Origin: Methanomicrobium sp.
GTDB taxonomy: Archaea; Halobacteriota; Methanomicrobia; Methanomicrobiales; Methanomicrobiaceae
Reading direction: 5' to 3'
Length of the DNA: 33,652 nucleotides
NCBI GenBank assembly: GCA_017412625.1
Contig: JAFPWZ010000055.1
Coordinates: 1-33,652, forward strand
In this document: one piece after another, positions 17,165 through 26,711 of the stretch
Numbering within the stretch: the first letter of the stretch is position 1
How the letters are laid out: every line of letters begins with the position of its first letter
Notes under the pieces: model-generated
What the model was told of the DNA's origin: nothing
What the model saw: only the letters and a program-made list of their open reading frames with translations
The model's database searches: none
Made by a program: the position numbers and the translations under genes

Positions 17165-19030
17165 ATGAACAAAGACTCCGAGAAGTACTTCACGCCTCAG
17201 GAAGTTGCCGACGCACTCAAGGTTGAGGCGCGTACGGTCCACACATGGCTTCGTGACGGTCAGATGAAAGGGGTAAAGATCGGCAGACTCTGGCGAATTC
17301 CGCAGAGCGAGATAGATAAAGCCAGCGGCGCCGAGAGCGTTCCCGAAGAATCCGTATCAAGAGTGCCGTTTGAGAAAGCCTACAATATGAAGAATTACGA
17401 AGAGACCTGTAAGAATTTCTCGATTGACGTTCCCGAATATTTCAACTTCGGATACGATGTCATAGACAAATGGGCGGAAACCGACAGAAACAAACTTGCA
17501 ATGATCTGGACCAATCAGCAGGGTCTGGAGAAGAAGTATTCATTCCGCGATCTTAAGAATCTCTCGAATCAGGTCGCAAATATTCTGTTAAAATACAATA
17601 TAAACAAGGGCGACCGCGTTCTTATTATGCTGCACCGCGTCCCCGAGTGGTGGATATTTGTCATAGGACTCATCAAACTCGGCGCCGTTGTATGTCCGTG
17701 TCCGACTCTGCTTACACCGAAGGACCTCAAATACAGAATAAATGCCGGCAAGTTCAAGATGGTCATCACCGACCTTGAGAATGCACCCAAGATCAACAAG
17801 ATCTGCAAGCAGTGCCCGACGCTGAGGACAAGGATGGTCGTTGACGGCGAGCTCGAGAACTGGGCGAGCTATCCGATGGAACTTCTGTATCCGGCGCCTG
17901 TATCCCATAAATCCGTAAGTATGCCCGCGGATCTGCGCACACGCTCCAAAGATCCGATGCTGATTTACTTTACATCCGGCACCACGGGTGAACCCAAGAT
18001 GGTGCTGCACAACAACGCATACCCGCTGGGTCACCGCGTTACCGCCGAACTCTGGCACGACCTTACACCGAACGACGTTCATTTCACGTCCTCGGATACG
18101 GGATGGGCAAAATGTGCGTGGGGCAAGATCTTCGGTCAGTGGATTGCGGGCGCATGTCTGCTCGTAATCGATTTCAGGGGCAAATTCGAGGCTACCCAGC
18201 TTCTGCCCTTCCTCGAGAAGTATGAGGTTACGAGTTTCTGCTGTCCGCCGACAATCTACCGCATGCTCATATTGGCGGATTTAAGCAAATTCGACCTCTC
18301 CGAGCTTCGCCACTGCTGCAGTGCCGGCGAGCCCCTCAATCCCGAGGTTATCAGAATATGGGAGGAGGGAACGGGTCTTACCATCCACGAGGGATACGGT
18401 CAGTCCGAGACCTGCTGTGCGATAGCGTCCTTCACCTGCATCAAGAACAAACCCGGTTCAATGGGCAAGCCTTCGCCGGGATGGAATATCGAGCTTCACG
18501 ATGACGAAGGAAAACCCGTGAAAGACTACGAGGAAGGCAGAATTGCCATCTCGCTCAATCCCAGACCCGTCGGTCTTATTGTCGAATACCTCAACAACGA
18601 GGAGGCGAACCGCGAGTCGTTCGTAAACGGATATTACTATACCGGAGATAAGGCATACCGCGACGAAGACGGTTATTTCTGGTTCGTCGGCAGAAACGAT
18701 GATGTCATTAAGAGTTCGGGATACAGAATCGGTCCGTTCGAGGTCGAATCCGCACTTCTGGAACATCCCGCGGTCAAGGAATCGGCGGTTGTCGGCACGC
18801 CCGACAGGATACGCGGAATGGTCGTCAAGGCGTTTATTGTCCTTAATGCCGGATTTGAGCCGAGTGACGAGCTGATTGTGGATATTCAGAAATTCGTGAA
18901 GGAGATAACGGCGCCTTACAAGTATCCGCGTGTGATAGAGTTCATAGACGAACTTCCGAAGACAATCTCGGGAAAGATCAAAAGAAACGAACTCCGAGAG
19001 ATTGAGCTTAAGAAATCAAGAGGAGAGTAA
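17165..19030 (+). CDS. AMP-forming acyl-CoA synthetase with N-terminal excisionase-type helix-turn-helix domain
   Basis: A 621-residue fusion. Residues about 7-53 form an excisionase/MerR-like HTH: YFTPQEVADALKVEARTVHT, then a wing with MKGVKIGRLWRIPQSEIDKA. After a linker of about 20 residues the rest is a complete ANL enzyme of the medium-chain/branched acyl-CoA synthetase group. It has the phosphate loop YFTSGTTGEPK (268-278), EGYGQSE (409-415), YTGDKAYRDEDGYFWFVGR, the DDVIKSSGYRIGPFEVE hinge, and catalytic Lys604 in KTISGKIKR. It should activate a carboxylic acid to acyl-AMP and then acyl-CoA; related methanogen enzymes use 2-methylbutyrate-like acids. All catalytic motifs are intact. 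The HTH is in frame with no internal stop, and its ATG is the only sensible start. A gene-control role for the enzyme is inferred. Confidence 0.9.
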   Translation: MNKDSEKYFTPQEVADALKVEARTVHTWLRDGQMKGVKIGRLWRIPQSEIDKASGAESVPEESVSRVPFEKAYNMKNYEETCKNFSIDVPEYFNFGYDVIDKWAETDRNKLAMIWTNQQGLEKKYSFRDLKNLSNQVANILLKYNINKGDRVLIMLHRVPEWWIFVIGLIKLGAVVCPCPTLLTPKDLKYRINAGKFKMVITDLENAPKINKICKQCPTLRTRMVVDGELENWASYPMELLYPAPVSHKSVSMPADLRTRSKDPMLIYFTSGTTGEPKMVLHNNAYPLGHRVTAELWHDLTPNDVHFTSSDTGWAKCAWGKIFGQWIAGACLLVIDFRGKFEATQLLPFLEKYEVTSFCCPPTIYRMLILADLSKFDLSELRHCCSAGEPLNPEVIRIWEEGTGLTIHEGYGQSETCCAIASFTCIKNKPGSMGKPSPGWNIELHDDEGKPVKDYEEGRIAISLNPRPVGLIVEYLNNEEANRESFVNGYYYTGDKAYRDEDGYFWFVGRNDDVIKSSGYRIGPFEVESALLEHPAVKESAVVGTPDRIRGMVVKAFIVLNAGFEPSDELIVDIQKFVKEITAPYKYPRVIEFIDELPKTISGKIKRNELREIELKKSRGE

Positions 19031-19104: not shown

Positions 19105-19340
19105 CCACAGTGGATATCTGCATCATACATACACCGACTGTGGCACCATATGAACTGACTTCGGTGCGGCAAAGTCGTGGAAAAGCACCGCACATGGATT
19201 AACAGGAGCACCTTACACATATTGACATGGCAATGTGCATACATCATTTGGTGCATATCTTGTGGCAAATTCATGTATGTGGTGCGCAATCAAGAATAGT
19301 ATTATATACAAAGCACCACAACCACTATTCACAATGGTGC
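19105..19340 (+). promoter_or_regulatory. operator-rich promoter of the RHH-acyl-CoA synthetase: eight helically spaced GGTGC/GCACC boxes
   Basis: GCACC or its complement GGTGC starts at 19143, 19163, 19185, 19208, 19250, 19281, 19313 and 19336. The steps are 20, 22, 23, 42, 31, 32 and 23 bases, all close to whole multiples of a 10.5-base turn. Random expectation in 200 bases is about 0.4 copies. The last three boxes bracket the TATA element TTATATAC (19302-19309) and cover the start codon. TATA position puts transcription start at about 19331, so the mRNA is nearly leaderless with the ATG at 19334. A 7-base inverted repeat CCACAGT/ACTGTGG (19105-19111 and 19137-19143) lies at the upstream end. 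Array-type operators like this suit ribbon-helix-helix proteins such as the one encoded downstream (inference). Confidence 0.7.
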
Positions 19341-21235
19341 GATTTTCCGTAACTATGGATGACAAACTCGTCGGAAAGATAGATGATTTGTCTGCAAAAC
19401 AGGGTAAATCCCGCTCGGAATGGATAAACGATGTCTGCGGCGAAAGTGTTGCCGAAGGCGGTGCGGTCGGTGCAAAATCCGACGCAGCCAATCAATGCGT
19501 AACCGAAGTTCTGACACTCCGCGACCGAATCCCCAAGAGCACTCCGAACATGGAGGACTATGACACGGTCTACAAAAACTTCAGGATCGATGTTCCCGAA
19601 TACTTCAATTTCGGATTCGATGTCGTGGACGCATGGGGCAAAATCGACAGAAACAAGCGTGCGATGGTCTGGATTAATCAGAGCGGCTATGAAAAGGCAT
19701 TTTCATTCCATCAGATTACCAACAAGTCCAATCAGGCGGCAAACATGCTCCTCAAATACGGCATCAAGAAGGGTGACCGCGTTGCTCTTATGCTCCCGCG
19801 TGTTCCCGAGTGGTGGTTCTTTGCGCTGGCATGCATCAAACTCGGTGCGGTCTTCGTCCCCTGTCCTACGATGCTGACGCCCAAAGATCTCAAATACCGT
19901 GCGAATGCCGCCGGATTCAAAATGATCGTCACAAATATGGAGAACGCATCGAAAGTTGAAGAGATCTGCCCGGAATGTGCCTCGCTTCGTTCAAGGCTTG
20001 TCGTGGACGGCGTTCGCGACAACTGGATCAGCTACCTTGTGGAGCTTGACTACCCCGCGCCCGTATCCAGTAAACTTGTGATGAGCGGTATTGAAAAGAC
20101 GCGTTCATCCGATCCGATGGTCATGTATTTCACCTCGGGAACCACGGGTGAGGCAAAGATGGTTCTTCACGATCATGCACTTGCTCTGGGACATCTGACA
20201 ACCGGCGCCTTCTGGCTCGATCTCAAGAAGGACGACGTGCACCTCACGCTCTCCGATACCGGATGGGGCAAATCTTCGTGGGGCAAGTTCTTCGGTCCGT
20301 GGATTCAGGGTGCCTGCAGTATCGTCTATGACTACCGCGGCAAGTTCAACGCGACCGAGATCCTTCCTATCCTCGAAAAGTATGAGATTACGTCGTTCTG
20401 CTGTCCGCCGACAATCTACCGTATGCTGATAATGGCGGACTTAAACAAGTTCGACCTTAAATCGCTTCGCCACTGCTGCAGTGCCGGCGAACCGCTCAAC
20501 CCCGAGGTAATCAAGGTCTGGAAAGAGGGAACGGGTCTTACAATCTATGAGGGATACGGTCAGACCGAGCTTACTCTCTGTATCGGCACTTTCCCGTGCA
20601 TGGAGGTCAAGCCGGGTTCCATGGGTAAACCGGCGCCCGGATGGCATATCGAGCTTCACGACGACAACGGAAAGAAGGTCGGCATCGGCGAGGTCGGAAG
20701 AATCGCGATTAAGGTCAATCCCAAGCCCGTCGGCATGTTCATGGAGTATGTGGACAATCCCGAGGAGAACAAAGCGGCGTTCTCAAACGGCTTCTACTAT
20801 ACCGGCGACAAGGCGTATATGGACAATGACGGTTACTTCTGGTTCGTGGGCAGGAGCGATGACGTCATCAAGAGTTCCGGTTACAGAATCGGTCCGTTCG
20901 AGGTGGAATCGGCAATCATGGAGCATCCGAGCGTGAAGGAGGTGGCCGTTGTGGGTTCACCCGATCCTATCCGCGGACTGGTCGTAAAGGCGTTTATCGT
21001 GCTTAAAGACGGATATGAGCCCTCGGATGCTCTTGTTGTGGATATTCAGAAGCATGTGAAGAGAACTACGGCGCCTTACAAGTATCCGCGTGTGATTGAG
21101 TTCGTTGAGGACCTTCCGAAGACTATTTCGGGTAAGATAAGACGCAATGTCCTTCGCGATGCCGAGATTAAGAAACATGTCGAGGCAATGAAGTCCCATG
21201 CCGAGGCTGCGAAGAACTCACAGAAACGCGACTGA
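19334..21235 (+). CDS. AMP-forming acyl-CoA synthetase with N-terminal ribbon-helix-helix DNA-binding domain
   Basis: A 633-residue fusion and a close paralog of the gene before it, except for the N-terminus. Residues 1-37 (VRFSVTMDDKLVGKIDDL, then a helix with KSRSEWINDV) are a textbook CopG/MetJ-type ribbon-helix-helix: a short beta strand, helix, turn, and the conserved SRSE start of helix 2. A linker of about 35 residues follows, then the full ANL enzyme: YFTSGTTGEAK (265-275), YEGYGQTE (405-412), YTGDKAYMDNDGYFWFVGR, the DDVIKSSGYRIGPFEVE hinge and catalytic Lys601 in KTISGKIRR. I chose the ATG at 19334 because the RHH begins there and a TATA box is placed for a leaderless start; an upstream ATG in frame (19235) precedes the TATA. 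The enzyme may repress its own promoter (inference). Confidence 0.92.
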   Translation: MVRFSVTMDDKLVGKIDDLSAKQGKSRSEWINDVCGESVAEGGAVGAKSDAANQCVTEVLTLRDRIPKSTPNMEDYDTVYKNFRIDVPEYFNFGFDVVDAWGKIDRNKRAMVWINQSGYEKAFSFHQITNKSNQAANMLLKYGIKKGDRVALMLPRVPEWWFFALACIKLGAVFVPCPTMLTPKDLKYRANAAGFKMIVTNMENASKVEEICPECASLRSRLVVDGVRDNWISYLVELDYPAPVSSKLVMSGIEKTRSSDPMVMYFTSGTTGEAKMVLHDHALALGHLTTGAFWLDLKKDDVHLTLSDTGWGKSSWGKFFGPWIQGACSIVYDYRGKFNATEILPILEKYEITSFCCPPTIYRMLIMADLNKFDLKSLRHCCSAGEPLNPEVIKVWKEGTGLTIYEGYGQTELTLCIGTFPCMEVKPGSMGKPAPGWHIELHDDNGKKVGIGEVGRIAIKVNPKPVGMFMEYVDNPEENKAAFSNGFYYTGDKAYMDNDGYFWFVGRSDDVIKSSGYRIGPFEVESAIMEHPSVKEVAVVGSPDPIRGLVVKAFIVLKDGYEPSDALVVDIQKHVKRTTAPYKYPRVIEFVEDLPKTISGKIRRNVLRDAEIKKHVEAMKSHAEAAKNSQKRD

Positions 21236-22177: not shown

Positions 22178-23362
22178 ATGACGTATGGTCACAGCGGTGA
22201 AAACTATATTGTCACTGTAGGAGGTCAGAGTTTGTGTCTTGTTTTCGAACGGGACGGTCTGCGGCTTAACTCCATATCCGAGTCGGTTGAGCCGTATTTT
22301 TATGCCTACAACTCAATTCTTAAAATTAAAGAATCGGCGGGGTCGATACCTTCTATCGGGATAACCGTGAACTACGGCGATTTCGGAGATGCCGTAATAG
22401 ATATTGATTTTAAGAGCGCCGACGAGATGAAGAAGGCGCTTGAGGAATTGACGGCACGCAGGAATTCTCCGGCCGCATCCTCAGCATCCGCGGCGGGTCC
22501 GTCGGCATCATCGGTATCATCCGCATCGGGGGCATCATCGGGTAATTCCTCAGCGGGTTACAACCCCTCAAAAAGTTCCGACTATTCGGGCAGGTCATAC
22601 CGGCAATCTGAGAATTCTTCATATTCGGGATCATACAGGGGATCATCCGGTTCTTACCCGGGTTCCTATTCGGGATCTTACTCCGGTTCACATTCAGGTT
22701 CATATTCGGGTTCATATTCAAATTCGAGTTCTTACTCCTCACCTTCGGATTCATACTCCAACCGCTATTATCACTCTCAGGACATCCCCGAATCCGCGGA
22801 AGAACTCTCAATTCAGGAGAAATACATCGAGTTTCTGAGGTATCCGTCCGAGACCTTCGAGGCGATAAAATACGAGACTCCGGATAAGAGCCTCTTCTAC
22901 TTCATCGTCGTTCTCTTCCTGTTTGCGGCAGTAAACACGATAGTCTGCGGATTTGTCGGGATGCTGGCGGCGCCGGACAACCCCTTTTTCGGGCATCTCT
23001 TCAGGGATTTCGGAAGTCTTGTGGTGACGACCCTGATTATATTCGTGATGACAGCCGCGGCTGTGGTAATCTACGGTCTCTGCACCCGCATCATGCTCAA
23101 TGCTTTGGGCTCGGAGCTTGAATTCCACGAATCCATGTCGATAACGTTTTACTCGGCAACGGCGTTCGGAACGGTCGGTCTGATCCCTCTTGTCGGCGTT
23201 TTCCTGGCGCCGTTTTACATGCTCTATCTCCAGATGAAGGGGCTTTGCAGTGCCTATGAGTTGGACACGACGGTCTCGCTGATTGCTTCCGTGGTTCCGT
23301 TTGCGGTTCTGTCGGGGCTGTTTTATTTCTTTATAATGAGCGGTGCGGTGGTGTACGCATGA
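22178..23362 (+). CDS. Yip1-like membrane protein with long Ser/Tyr/Gly low-complexity region (cassette copy 1)
   Basis: A 394-residue three-part protein. Residues 1-95 are a small beta-rich domain with VGGQSLCLVFERDGLRL and VEPYFYAYNSIL, which looks like a PH-type fold but which I cannot assign firmly. Residues 97-203 are low complexity, dominated by Ser, Tyr and Gly with SYSG and SGSY repeats. After the motif RYPSETFE (221-228), residues 238-392 form four or five membrane segments in the pattern of the Yip1 domain. The ATG follows GAGAGTGATGATG, a usable ribosome site, and an A/T box (TTATGCATATCTAATATAGG) lies upstream. Its stop overlaps the next gene as ATGA, so the two are made together. 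A paralog with the same architecture follows at 24415. Function unknown. Confidence 0.85.
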   Translation: MTYGHSGENYIVTVGGQSLCLVFERDGLRLNSISESVEPYFYAYNSILKIKESAGSIPSIGITVNYGDFGDAVIDIDFKSADEMKKALEELTARRNSPAASSASAAGPSASSVSSASGASSGNSSAGYNPSKSSDYSGRSYRQSENSSYSGSYRGSSGSYPGSYSGSYSGSHSGSYSGSYSNSSSYSSPSDSYSNRYYHSQDIPESAEELSIQEKYIEFLRYPSETFEAIKYETPDKSLFYFIVVLFLFAAVNTIVCGFVGMLAAPDNPFFGHLFRDFGSLVVTTLIIFVMTAAAVVIYGLCTRIMLNALGSELEFHESMSITFYSATAFGTVGLIPLVGVFLAPFYMLYLQMKGLCSAYELDTTVSLIASVVPFAVLSGLFYFFIMSGAVVYA

Positions 23363-24240
23363 GAACGATTAACCCGGGAACAATAATAATGGCGGCAGTT
23401 TTGCTGCTCGCTGCGGTTGCGGTGCCCGCAAGTGCGGATTTAACCGTCGATTTCGATTGGGAAATATATCAGATCAACCGTGCCGACTGGGCGGGACTGC
23501 CGGATTATAAGGATTATTCGGAATACACCACAATTTATGAGGTGCATTATACCGATGAAAGCACTACCGATGCCTCCGGCATAAAAAACAGAAAATGGGA
23601 ATTTTCGCCTTCGTACTGGGGCATGGAATCCGCGCCCAATCCCGTGTATATCTACACCGACGAGGAAGTGAAGAAATATAACGGCAGAGTAGAGGTAAAA
23701 CTTGAGGTCACGGATACCGATAATAACCACGATGATGAGAAGAAATGGGTGTATCTGGTCGAAGACGCATGGAATACCCATCCGATTCATTTGAAGACGC
23801 CTTCGTCAACGCCGACAGCCGCACCGACGCCGACACCAACCCCTACACCGGTTCAGACAACGGCGCCGACGGCAACTCCGACTCCGACAACCGAGCCTAC
23901 GACAGAACCGACATCCGAGCCGACTCAGACCGCAACTCCGACCCCGACACCCACGCCGACCGCAACCCCGACCGTTACGGCTACACCCACATCAACTCCG
24001 ACGCCGGTGCCGACGGTTGAGGCAACACCTTCGGAGACTGTCGTGCCCACGGTATCGCCCACGTCGGCACCGAAAGATACGGGTTCATCCAAAGAGGATG
24101 CCATAAACGGTCCCATTCCGCGTCCGCTTGCGGATACGTCGGATGCGGGACTGATGAAGCTGCCGCTGATATCCGATATTTTCGGATATATCCAGTATGT
24201 CTATGACAGCTATGTCAGCCTGATCAATTCGATAATTTAA
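23359..24240 (+). CDS. secreted protein with Pro/Thr-rich stalk (cassette copy 1)
   Basis: A 293-residue exported protein. A signal peptide (residues 1-26, cleavage after PASA) precedes a domain of about 120 residues containing YQINRADWAGLPDYKDYSEY and ending VYLVEDAW. Residues 148-243 are almost entirely Thr, Pro, Ala and Glu in TPTP-type repeats, typical of a glycosylated extracellular stalk. The protein ends with an amphipathic segment (LPLISDIFGYIQYVYDSYV) and has no clear PGF-type sorting signal or strong final membrane anchor. It starts within the stop of the Yip1-like gene. The second cassette encodes a shorter homolog. I recognise no family; surface location is inferred from signal peptide and stalk. 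Confidence 0.85.
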   Translation: MRTINPGTIIMAAVLLLAAVAVPASADLTVDFDWEIYQINRADWAGLPDYKDYSEYTTIYEVHYTDESTTDASGIKNRKWEFSPSYWGMESAPNPVYIYTDEEVKKYNGRVEVKLEVTDTDNNHDDEKKWVYLVEDAWNTHPIHLKTPSSTPTAAPTPTPTPTPVQTTAPTATPTPTTEPTTEPTSEPTQTATPTPTPTPTATPTVTATPTSTPTPVPTVEATPSETVVPTVSPTSAPKDTGSSKEDAINGPIPRPLADTSDAGLMKLPLISDIFGYIQYVYDSYVSLINSII

Positions 24241-24414
24241 TGATTTAACCGGCAAATTCCACTTTTTTTAAAGACTCTTACTCCGACGATGCGTGATTTT
24301 TTGTGGATGCATTCTGCGGTATTGAAAAGCATAATATTTTAATAAGTTAAACCTTAAAAGCAGAATAATTAATTACGAATAATTTTTCAGAGCAATTGAA
24401 TCAGGGATGGTATC
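24241..24414 (+). promoter_or_regulatory. terminator and promoter region between the two cassettes
   Basis: A T-run (CTTTTTTT, near 24264) after the first cassette is a probable terminator. Further on, CATAATATTTTAATAAG (about 24331-24347) is a good TATA candidate for the second cassette, giving a leader of roughly 55 bases. GGGATGGT just before the TTG at 24415 is the ribosome site. Each cassette is therefore probably its own transcript. Confidence 0.5.
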
Positions 24415-25998
24415 TTGAGTTATCTGACGTCAAAAGTACGGGTCGGCGGTCAGCTCTATCATCTGACAATGGATGAAAGCAAACTGAGGCTGGATCTTGC
24501 CGCAGGCGGAGTTGAACCCTACGAATATCCGTATGATGTAATAAAAAGCGCAAAGGCGGTCGCAAACGGCTATTACGAGCCGTGCATCGAGGTTACGGTC
24601 TGTTATAACCTCAATGAGACCGCGTCCATGACAATGACCTTTGATTTCGACGAGGAGCGTGACAATGTATTAAGGCAGATCCTCTCGGTAACCGGAAACA
24701 ACGGCGGCGGTTATCAGCAGGCACCCGCGGCGGCAGGATTCGGGCAGACACAGGCTAATTACGGTCAGGACATGTACGGGCAGAACGCTTCCGGCGGTTA
24801 CGGACAGTCCCGGCAGTATTCCGGCGGCTACGGAAACAGTTCGCACGGAAACAGTTCGGGTTATTCGGATAACTACGGGCAGGGCGGTCAGAATTACGGA
24901 GATAATTACGGTCAGAACAATCAGCAGTATTCGAACAATCAGCAGTATCCGAACAGTCAGCCGTATAATGAATACTCTGACGAAAATACCGATGTCTACG
25001 GCGCCAACCGTTCCGGCGGCTACGGCGGTTACAATGACGGCATGAACGGCTACGGATCCGACGGAGGCTACGGTAACGGCGGTTACGGCAACGACAGCTA
25101 CGGCAACGGTTATCAGGACGGTTATTCGCAGAACAACTCCGGCAATTACTCAAATTACTCCGACAACTATTCGAACAATTACTCCGACAATTACTCCGAC
25201 AATTACGGCAATAACGGAAACAATTACTCCGATAATTATCGCGATAACTATCGGGATGGCTACTCCGACAATTATTCCGACCGCTACTCCGACGGCGGCT
25301 ACGGTAACGGCGATTACGACCGCTACGGCGGCAGAGGCGGCAGGGGAGATGAATACGAACGCGGTTATGACTCCGGTTACGGATCGTCGTATGATTCCGG
25401 ACGGCAGTCTTTCGGCGAATACAAATACTCGCAGGGATCGCTCTCGTTTCCCCAGAAGATAATTGGTTTTATCCGATACCCGTCCGAGACGTTTGAGTCC
25501 TCCAATTCGGACAGCACGGTTTCGGTTCTGATATACGGCATTCTTATGCTGGTTCTGTTCTCGGTTGTAAACGTGGTAATTGCCGCTGTCATCGGTTCGT
25601 CTGCAGCGCCGAAGAACGCGATATTCGGCGCCCTGCTCTCAAACGGCGGCGAACTCGTCAGGCTTATCCTCGAGTATCTGATATTCTCGATAATCTGTCT
25701 GCTCGTATACGGCATTCTGGTATTCCTGCTCACAAAGATTACGGGTCAGGGGCTCAGCATTCAGGAATCGCTTCACACGACGATTTATTCGTCAACGGCG
25801 CTCGGAACAGTCGGGCTTATTCCGCTTATCGGAATCTTCATAGCGCCGCTCTTCCTTATCTTCCTTCAGATAAAGGGACTCATGGCGGGATATGTTCAGG
25901 ATATCAAATTCGCGGTAATTGCGGCTGTGGTGCCCGCGATTATCATGTTCGCGGTCTTCTACTATGTTGTTGTCAGCGGCGAGGTGGCATTTATATGA
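24415..25998 (+). CDS. Yip1-like membrane protein with long Gly/Tyr/Asn/Gln prion-like region (cassette copy 2)
   Basis: A 527-residue paralog of the protein at 22178. The N-terminal domain (1-93) shares VGGQLYHLTMDESKLRL and VEPYEYPYDVI with copy 1. Residues 95-345 are a very long low-complexity region of Gly, Tyr, Asn, Ser, Asp and Gln, with NYSDNY and GYGN repeats and one RGG-like patch, GGRGGRGDEYERG; the composition is like that of eukaryotic prion-like and FUS-type domains. After IRYPSETFE the Yip1-like membrane domain follows with LIPLIGIFIAPLFLIFLQIKG, closely matching copy 1. I used the TTG start because GGGATGGT is well placed and no ATG is in frame. The stop overlaps the next gene as ATGA. 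Function unknown. Confidence 0.85.
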   Translation: MSYLTSKVRVGGQLYHLTMDESKLRLDLAAGGVEPYEYPYDVIKSAKAVANGYYEPCIEVTVCYNLNETASMTMTFDFDEERDNVLRQILSVTGNNGGGYQQAPAAAGFGQTQANYGQDMYGQNASGGYGQSRQYSGGYGNSSHGNSSGYSDNYGQGGQNYGDNYGQNNQQYSNNQQYPNSQPYNEYSDENTDVYGANRSGGYGGYNDGMNGYGSDGGYGNGGYGNDSYGNGYQDGYSQNNSGNYSNYSDNYSNNYSDNYSDNYGNNGNNYSDNYRDNYRDGYSDNYSDRYSDGGYGNGDYDRYGGRGGRGDEYERGYDSGYGSSYDSGRQSFGEYKYSQGSLSFPQKIIGFIRYPSETFESSNSDSTVSVLIYGILMLVLFSVVNVVIAAVIGSSAAPKNAIFGALLSNGGELVRLILEYLIFSIICLLVYGILVFLLTKITGQGLSIQESLHTTIYSSTALGTVGLIPLIGIFIAPLFLIFLQIKGLMAGYVQDIKFAVIAAVVPAIIMFAVFYYVVVSGEVAFI

Positions 25999-26711
25999 AC
26001 GGCAATATTTTGAACGGCAAAAAAATGAACGGTAATATTCCTGAAAAAACGAAAGGCAATGCGGGAAGACTGGCTGCAGGAACCTTGCTTATCCTCATGC
26101 TCCTCGGAGTTCTGATATTCTCGCTTGCGGCTGCACCGGTATCGGCGGAACTGTCCCCTAAAATCGGATATGAACTCTATCAGATAAAACTCTCCGACTG
26201 GGCGGGTTATCCCGACTATGTGAAGTATTCGCGATATGACAAGATATACGAGCTTTGTCTGTACGATAAGGCGGGCAGTTCCGTTAAATCAAGATCATGG
26301 TCGGTGGACGATCCTTACTGGACTTCATCGAGCAAGGAGAAATTTTCGGTTATCTATACCCCGGATGATGTTCAAAAAATGAAGGGCAAGGTGAAGGTAA
26401 AGCTCGTCAACATCGGCAGCGGCGGCGACTACGGAGAAGCCGAGGAATACATTTACCTTACCGAAGAAGCATCGTGGGGCGGTTTTGTCATATATGACCT
26501 GACCCCGGAGCCTACGGCGACACCGACGCCGGTTCCCACGCCGACACCCACACCTGCACCGACACCGGTGCCGACACCGACGCCGGAGCCTACGCCGACG
26601 GCATCACATGTATTGAAACTGCCTGTTTCAAGTGAGATGACAAAACTTCAGGATACATTCTCGTCCTATATCGAGCTGCTGAAGACGCTGTTCGGCTTAA
26701 ATAAAAAATAA
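25995..26711 (+). CDS. secreted protein with short Pro/Thr stalk (cassette copy 2)
   Basis: A 238-residue homolog of the exported protein at 23359. The N-terminus carries a duplicated MNGNI peptide before the hydrophobic signal segment (about residues 26-47, cleavage after PVSA). The mature domain shares [20 protein letters not shown] with copy 1 and ends [14 protein letters not shown] stalk of about 40 residues ([17 protein letters not shown] and similar) is much shorter than that of copy 1. The C-terminal segment [20 protein letters not shown], then [12 protein letters not shown], is amphipathic. An internal ATG at codon 11 is also possible, but the ATGA overlap favours the first. Presumed to act at the cell surface together with the Yip1-like protein encoded before it. 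Confidence 0.85.

Follow-up and report, generated by a model that had tools for sequence, protein, structure and literature searches.

A PH-fold Yip1 membrane protein paired with tail-bearing secreted proteins suggests a possible undescribed mode of surface-protein handling in archaea

Proteins of the Yip1 family typically have five transmembrane helices and a cytoplasmic N terminus. The hallmarks of archaeosortase CTERM proteins are a C-terminal signature motif, a transmembrane helix, and a basic cluster, together with co-distribution with the cognate sortase. For prokaryotic Yip1 proteins, no function has been reported (PMC6682643). Archaeal Yip1-like cassettes with SpoIIM-like proteins (arCOG02054/arCOG01996) comprise small membrane proteins in Archaeoglobi, Methanococci, and Thermococci (PMC5898192), and in the S-layer protein of Methanospirillum hungatei a proline-rich spacer has been proposed between the Ig-like domains and the membrane anchor (PMC11641113). 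The locus described here, from a Methanomicrobium genome of the order Methanomicrobiales, pairs a Yip1 protein bearing an N-terminal PH-fold domain (PH-Yip1) with a secreted protein that ends in a short amphipathic tail; no description of this pair was found in the openly licensed literature. Such a pairing suggests that these archaea hold or handle proteins on their cell surface in a manner not yet described.

The window (the whole stretch of 33,652 nucleotides that was analyzed) contains two tandem gene pairs on the plus strand, here called copies A and B, with identical gene order and an ATGA overlap in both, as the initial annotation had stated and the open reading frames confirm. In copy A, gene 1 (22178..23362; 394 amino acids) encodes a PH-fold domain, a Ser/Tyr-rich linker, and a Yip1 membrane domain, and gene 2 (23359..24240; 293 amino acids) encodes an exported protein with a degenerate PKD head, a long Pro/Thr stalk, and a C-terminal tail. 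In copy B, gene 1 (24415..25998; 527 amino acids) begins with TTG and carries a Gly/Tyr/Asn/Ser-rich linker between the same two domains, and gene 2 (25995..26711; 238 amino acids) repeats the exported layout of head, Pro/Thr stalk, and tail. Alignments show that the copies are homologous in every folded part. The Yip1 halves, both with the motif RYPSETFE, share 39% identity over 188 amino acids (E 4e-42), the N termini of gene 1 share 30% identity, and the secreted heads, both with the motif DWAG.PDY..YS.Y, share 35% identity over 130 amino acids (E 2e-24). The copy B stalk is 97% identical between the window genome and Methanomicrobium mobile, so that the strong divergence ascribed to the low-complexity parts lies mainly between the paralogues. 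Two trees bear on the timing of the tandem duplication: that of the heads groups the two Methanomicrobium copies together (96/96), and that of the Yip1 domains, which has long branches, supports no particular timing. Elsewhere in the window, tandem acyl-CoA synthetase-like (AMP-binding) genes lie at 17165-19030, with an N-terminal HTH_17 domain, and at 19235-21235, with an N-terminal ribbon-helix-helix domain. Both N-terminal domains score above the Pfam cut-offs, and the genes encode DNA-binding domains fused to AMP-binding enzymes.

The PH fold is a seven-stranded barrel with a C-terminal helix as its cap. In the AF2 model of copy A, residues 8 to 95 approximately (22199..22462) form seven strands and a helix, and a fold search of the PDB gave PH and FERM-F3 domains as best matches (E 2.5e-4, probability 1.00, target TM-score up to 0.83). 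The N terminus of copy A is thus predicted to adopt the PH fold. Window-type N termini also align with the PH region of larger paralogues at an hhalign probability of 97.7, against at most 0.2 for swapped controls; sequence searches of solved structures returned nothing useful. The corresponding domain of copy B (about residues 8 to 94; 24436..24696) was delimited by alignment with copy A. The Yip1 domain of copy A (residues 218 to 383; 22829..23326) matches Pfam PF04893 with 40 bits (cut-off, 28.6), and a low-confidence model places its helices at residues 235-264, 278-309, 316-333, 335-359, and 364-387. Copy B alone gave no Pfam Yip1 match; its domain (25447..25995) is assigned because it is 39% identical to that of copy A and by a score of 214.7 bits against a PH-Yip1 profile of which it is itself a row. 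The initial annotation had called the gene 1 product a Yip1-like membrane protein and had overlooked its PH-fold N terminus. The linker between the PH and Yip1 domains measures 61 to 253 residues. That of copy B (24700-25440; about 245 residues) has a composition resembling that of known phase-separating low-complexity domains.

Gene 2 encodes, in order, a hydrophobic N-terminal signal segment, the head, the Pro/Thr stalk (about residues 148 to 241 in copy A, 23800..24081; about 171 to 204 in copy B, 26505..26606), and the tail. Window-type heads align with the PKD domains of paralogous partners at an hhalign probability of 98.0, and an orthologue at another locus (L064) passes the Pfam PKD threshold with 50.8 bits. 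The window partners themselves gave no Pfam PKD match (PF00801/PF18911), their usual PKD motif being lost, and their heads are, judged by sequence, degenerate descendants of PKD domains. The AF2 model of the copy B protein, of low overall confidence, gives a beta-sandwich for the head and places a C-terminal helix at residues 213 to 232, and a fold search with the secreted head retrieved only Ig- and cadherin-like matches, all nonsignificant. A secreted partner with a Pro/Thr stalk had been correctly recognized, whereas its degenerate PKD head and its C-terminal amphipathic tail had escaped notice.

The tail comprises about 30 residues, usually a proline-containing start followed by an amphipathic helix with the pattern [DE][YFW][IL]x[LI][LI]xx[LIFM]. 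Its hydrophobic moment is mostly 0.4 to 0.65, and it is too polar for a transmembrane helix, since its best 19-residue hydropathy is below 1.6. The window tails, both of them rows of the tail profile, match it with E 8.2e-8 (copy A, 24154..24237) and E 2.3e-10 (copy B, 26613..26702). Across whole genomes, true matches have E values of at most 1.6e-5 and the next ones of at least 0.06; many of the matches are profile rows, and sequences that are not (e.g., G075 C39 and G123 C1) score equally well. A match in G018 (E 0.009) was discarded as noise. Comparison with the NCBIfam CTERM models gave no match. Genomes that have the tail encode only 1 to 6 tail-bearing proteins each, which makes a general sorting role unlikely. 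A few of these proteins have no Yip1 neighbor, namely a G000 protein (C5) with its G087 and G123 relatives and a G025 protein (C1:192237). The G000 protein (G000:C5:12068-12169; L196 5566-7887) is a 773-amino-acid PKD protein encoded divergently from a DUF308 (HdeD-like) gene, an arrangement also seen at an M. mobile locus (L195). Certain genomes of the second family encode, after the first tail-bearing PKD protein, another one of smaller size (L077 7502-8005; L071 7296-7817). Partners at three loci (L100, L103, and L108) have no recognizable PKD domain and keep the tail, so that what stays constant and matches PH-Yip1 is the tail rather than the head.

The window genome also has a larger PH/zinc-ribbon/Yip1 cassette, of which the window pair is a derived paralogue: this third cassette, on contig C100, encodes a PH-like region, a zinc ribbon, and a Yip1 domain in one protein of 679 amino acids, and next to it a protein with two PKD domains and a tail of the same type. 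Members of the wider family have one or more PH domains, in many cases a zinc ribbon, and long linkers, and their exported partners combine a PKD domain or a different ectodomain with the tail and, in most cases, a Pro/Thr stalk; the window-type branch has a single PH domain and no zinc ribbon. Among the 57 PH-Yip1 loci collected in the order, every one has a secreted protein directly downstream, with an intergenic gap between -8 and +21 nucleotides in 51 (exactly -4 in 20). The tail aligns in 51 of the 52 partners that are complete and unbroken, the exception (L095) having an altered tail. Short Yip1 genes (about 200 amino acids) have no comparable secreted neighbor at their loci. Several candidate exceptions were set aside: four (L112, L116, L118, and L120) are really short Yip1 genes with spurious upstream extensions of the reading frame, the partner of L115 is encoded in an overlapping frame, and L083 looks frameshifted. 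One additional genus has a more divergent PH-Yip1, again accompanied by a PKD protein (L259). Several window-type cassettes are immediately preceded by a gene for a membrane protein of about 740 amino acids (L061 2238-4454, L064 6367-8598, L065 6886-9117, and L066 2507-4738); the L061 protein is an MMPL/RND-type exporter by Pfam, and the window has no such gene at that position.

The two families also occur together over genomes. Every strong match of the secreted partner adjoins a Yip1 gene, and the pairing, far from being confined to one genome, spans two families of the order. In a sample of 150 genomes of the order, 39 have both PH-Yip1 and the tail, 106 have neither, 1 has Yip1 only, and 4 have the tail only (Fisher p = 3e-30, uncorrected for the relatedness of the genomes, which are not independent). 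All five mismatches lie at contig ends, and in the one genome with Yip1 alone (G126) the contig breaks off within the partner gene. In a sample of 394 genomes of the phylum, the tail (E < 1e-4) and PH-Yip1 (at least 140 bits, short Yip1 genes reaching at most 114 bits) are found in an identical set of 19. Archaeosortase A, by comparison, is present in all 20 genomes examined, two of which have no tail, so the tail is not co-distributed with this enzyme.

The double cassette recurs in Methanomicrobium mobile BP (locus L253, NZ_JOMF01000008.1), which excludes an assembly artifact; the TTG start of copy B gene 1 is found there too. A scan of named genomes with a narrow PH-Yip1 alignment gave two named loci. 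Between the window genome and M. mobile, all four cassette genes are under purifying selection, with dN/dS values of 0.08 to 0.27. The PH domain is the most constrained part (0.02 and 0.09), and the linker is less so (0.30 and 0.22).

The suggestion of the initial annotation that the membrane protein works with the surface protein is well supported by this genomic association; physical contact between tail and Yip1, the topology, and anchoring as the outcome are inferred. Strict linkage kept in paralogues and a constant tail under a changing ectodomain fit a membrane partner that recognizes the tail, and the chances are about even that PH-Yip1 serves surface proteins with the tail as such a dedicated partner, either anchoring or assembling them. 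Gene 2 would be exported through its signal peptide, its stalk holding the Ig-like head away from the membrane and its amphipathic tail lying along the outside of the cytoplasmic membrane; by analogy with the spacer arrangement of the M. hungatei protein, a membrane-proximal tail is plausible. Gene 1 would supply the multihelix Yip1 membrane protein, with the PH domain or domains, zinc ribbon, and low-complexity linker on the cytoplasmic side. By recognizing the tail, PH-Yip1 may anchor, assemble, or cluster the surface protein and thereby connect the cell surface with the cytoplasmic side. Since these genomes encode a few tail-bearing proteins at other places, the tail probably acts in trans as well. 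More tentatively, PH-Yip1 proteins might be membrane receptors in a nonproteolytic form of surface anchoring, with the tail as a transferable address label that several surface proteins carry. Such a role would be the first concrete function for a prokaryotic Yip1 protein, would tie the archaeal surface to cytoplasmic PH domains, and would add, beside archaeosortase, another route by which archaea attach proteins to their surface, one in which the pair has a PH-fold domain facing the cytoplasm. The strict partner with a recognizable tail makes a direct test feasible in cultured methanogens such as M. mobile.

The elaborate, presumably cytoplasmic part of the wider family, with its one or more PH domains, zinc ribbons, and long linkers, and the varying ectodomain over a constant tail and Yip1 domain would also suit a transmembrane sensor, in which the surface protein detects load, ligand, or envelope damage and signals through Yip1 to the cytoplasmic PH/zinc-ribbon/low-complexity region; PH-Yip1 would then be a receptor rather than an anchor, a role on which there has been earlier speculation for prokaryotic Yip1 (PMC6682643). 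This is fairly unlikely, given that gene 1 carries no known signaling output domain (kinase, cyclase, or DNA-binding), that the window-type branch has a single PH domain and no zinc ribbon, and that tail proteins outside the cassettes suit an anchor better. PH folds often bind lipid, and eukaryotic Yip1 acts in vesicle formation, so that PH-Yip1 might instead shape or bud membrane with the surface protein as cargo or coat. Archaeal Yip1-like cassettes with SpoIIM-like proteins have indeed been assigned to membrane remodeling, with S-layer genes in their loci (PMC5898192). In the gene lists inspected, however, none of the constant neighbors was a SpoIIM-like gene, an AAA ATPase, or a SalXY-type transporter. 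The membrane neighbors seen were MMPL, DUF308, and MFS proteins, and a remodeling module seems a distinctly weak candidate.

Operon inertia or shared expression could by itself keep two genes together, and linkage alone, in genomes that are related, is compatible with this; genes for two steps in a single pathway would likewise be linked, with no contact between their products. Within one genome, paralogous cassettes at separate loci nevertheless keep the pair despite different flanking genes (L070, L074, and L075), and in both samples genomes without one gene are without the other, which renders linkage without function very improbable. The C-terminal tail stays constant while the ectodomains vary, also in proteins encoded outside the cassette; this is reminiscent of CTERM systems and raises the idea that Yip1 or an archaeosortase-like enzyme cuts or modifies the tail. 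This appears very improbable, as the tail has neither the signature/transmembrane layout nor the sortase co-distribution of CTERM proteins, and the wide Yip1 alignment, whose invariant columns are P, F, and G residues only, reveals no recognized catalytic set.

Compared with the archaeosortase A/PGF-CTERM proteins (TIGR04125; M. hungatei S-layer protein, PMC11641113), which are exported proteins found in the same taxonomic order, the gene 2 product likewise has Ig-like domains, a proline-rich spacer, and a C-terminal membrane-proximal element, but its tail is an amphipathic helix without a transmembrane segment or CTERM match and tracks PH-Yip1 rather than archaeosortase A. As in the arCOG02054/arCOG01996 cassettes, a Yip1-family protein lies in a conserved cassette, with surface-layer genes in the loci; here, in contrast, it bears PH domains and is strictly paired with a secreted protein. 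In eukaryotic Yip1/YIPF proteins (PMC6682643), too, the Yip1 domain comes after a cytoplasmic N terminus, in whose place a PH domain, presumably cytoplasmic as well, stands here; the partner is an exported surface protein, and there is no Rab-type pathway. PKD-domain surface proteins of methanogens share the PKD ectodomains and Pro/Thr-rich stretches, whereas the proteins described here have a dedicated tail and a linked PH-Yip1 gene, and the motif usual in PKD domains has been lost from the window copies. More broadly, the PH-Yip1/tail pair belongs with surface proteins that have a membrane partner of their own, a kind already known.
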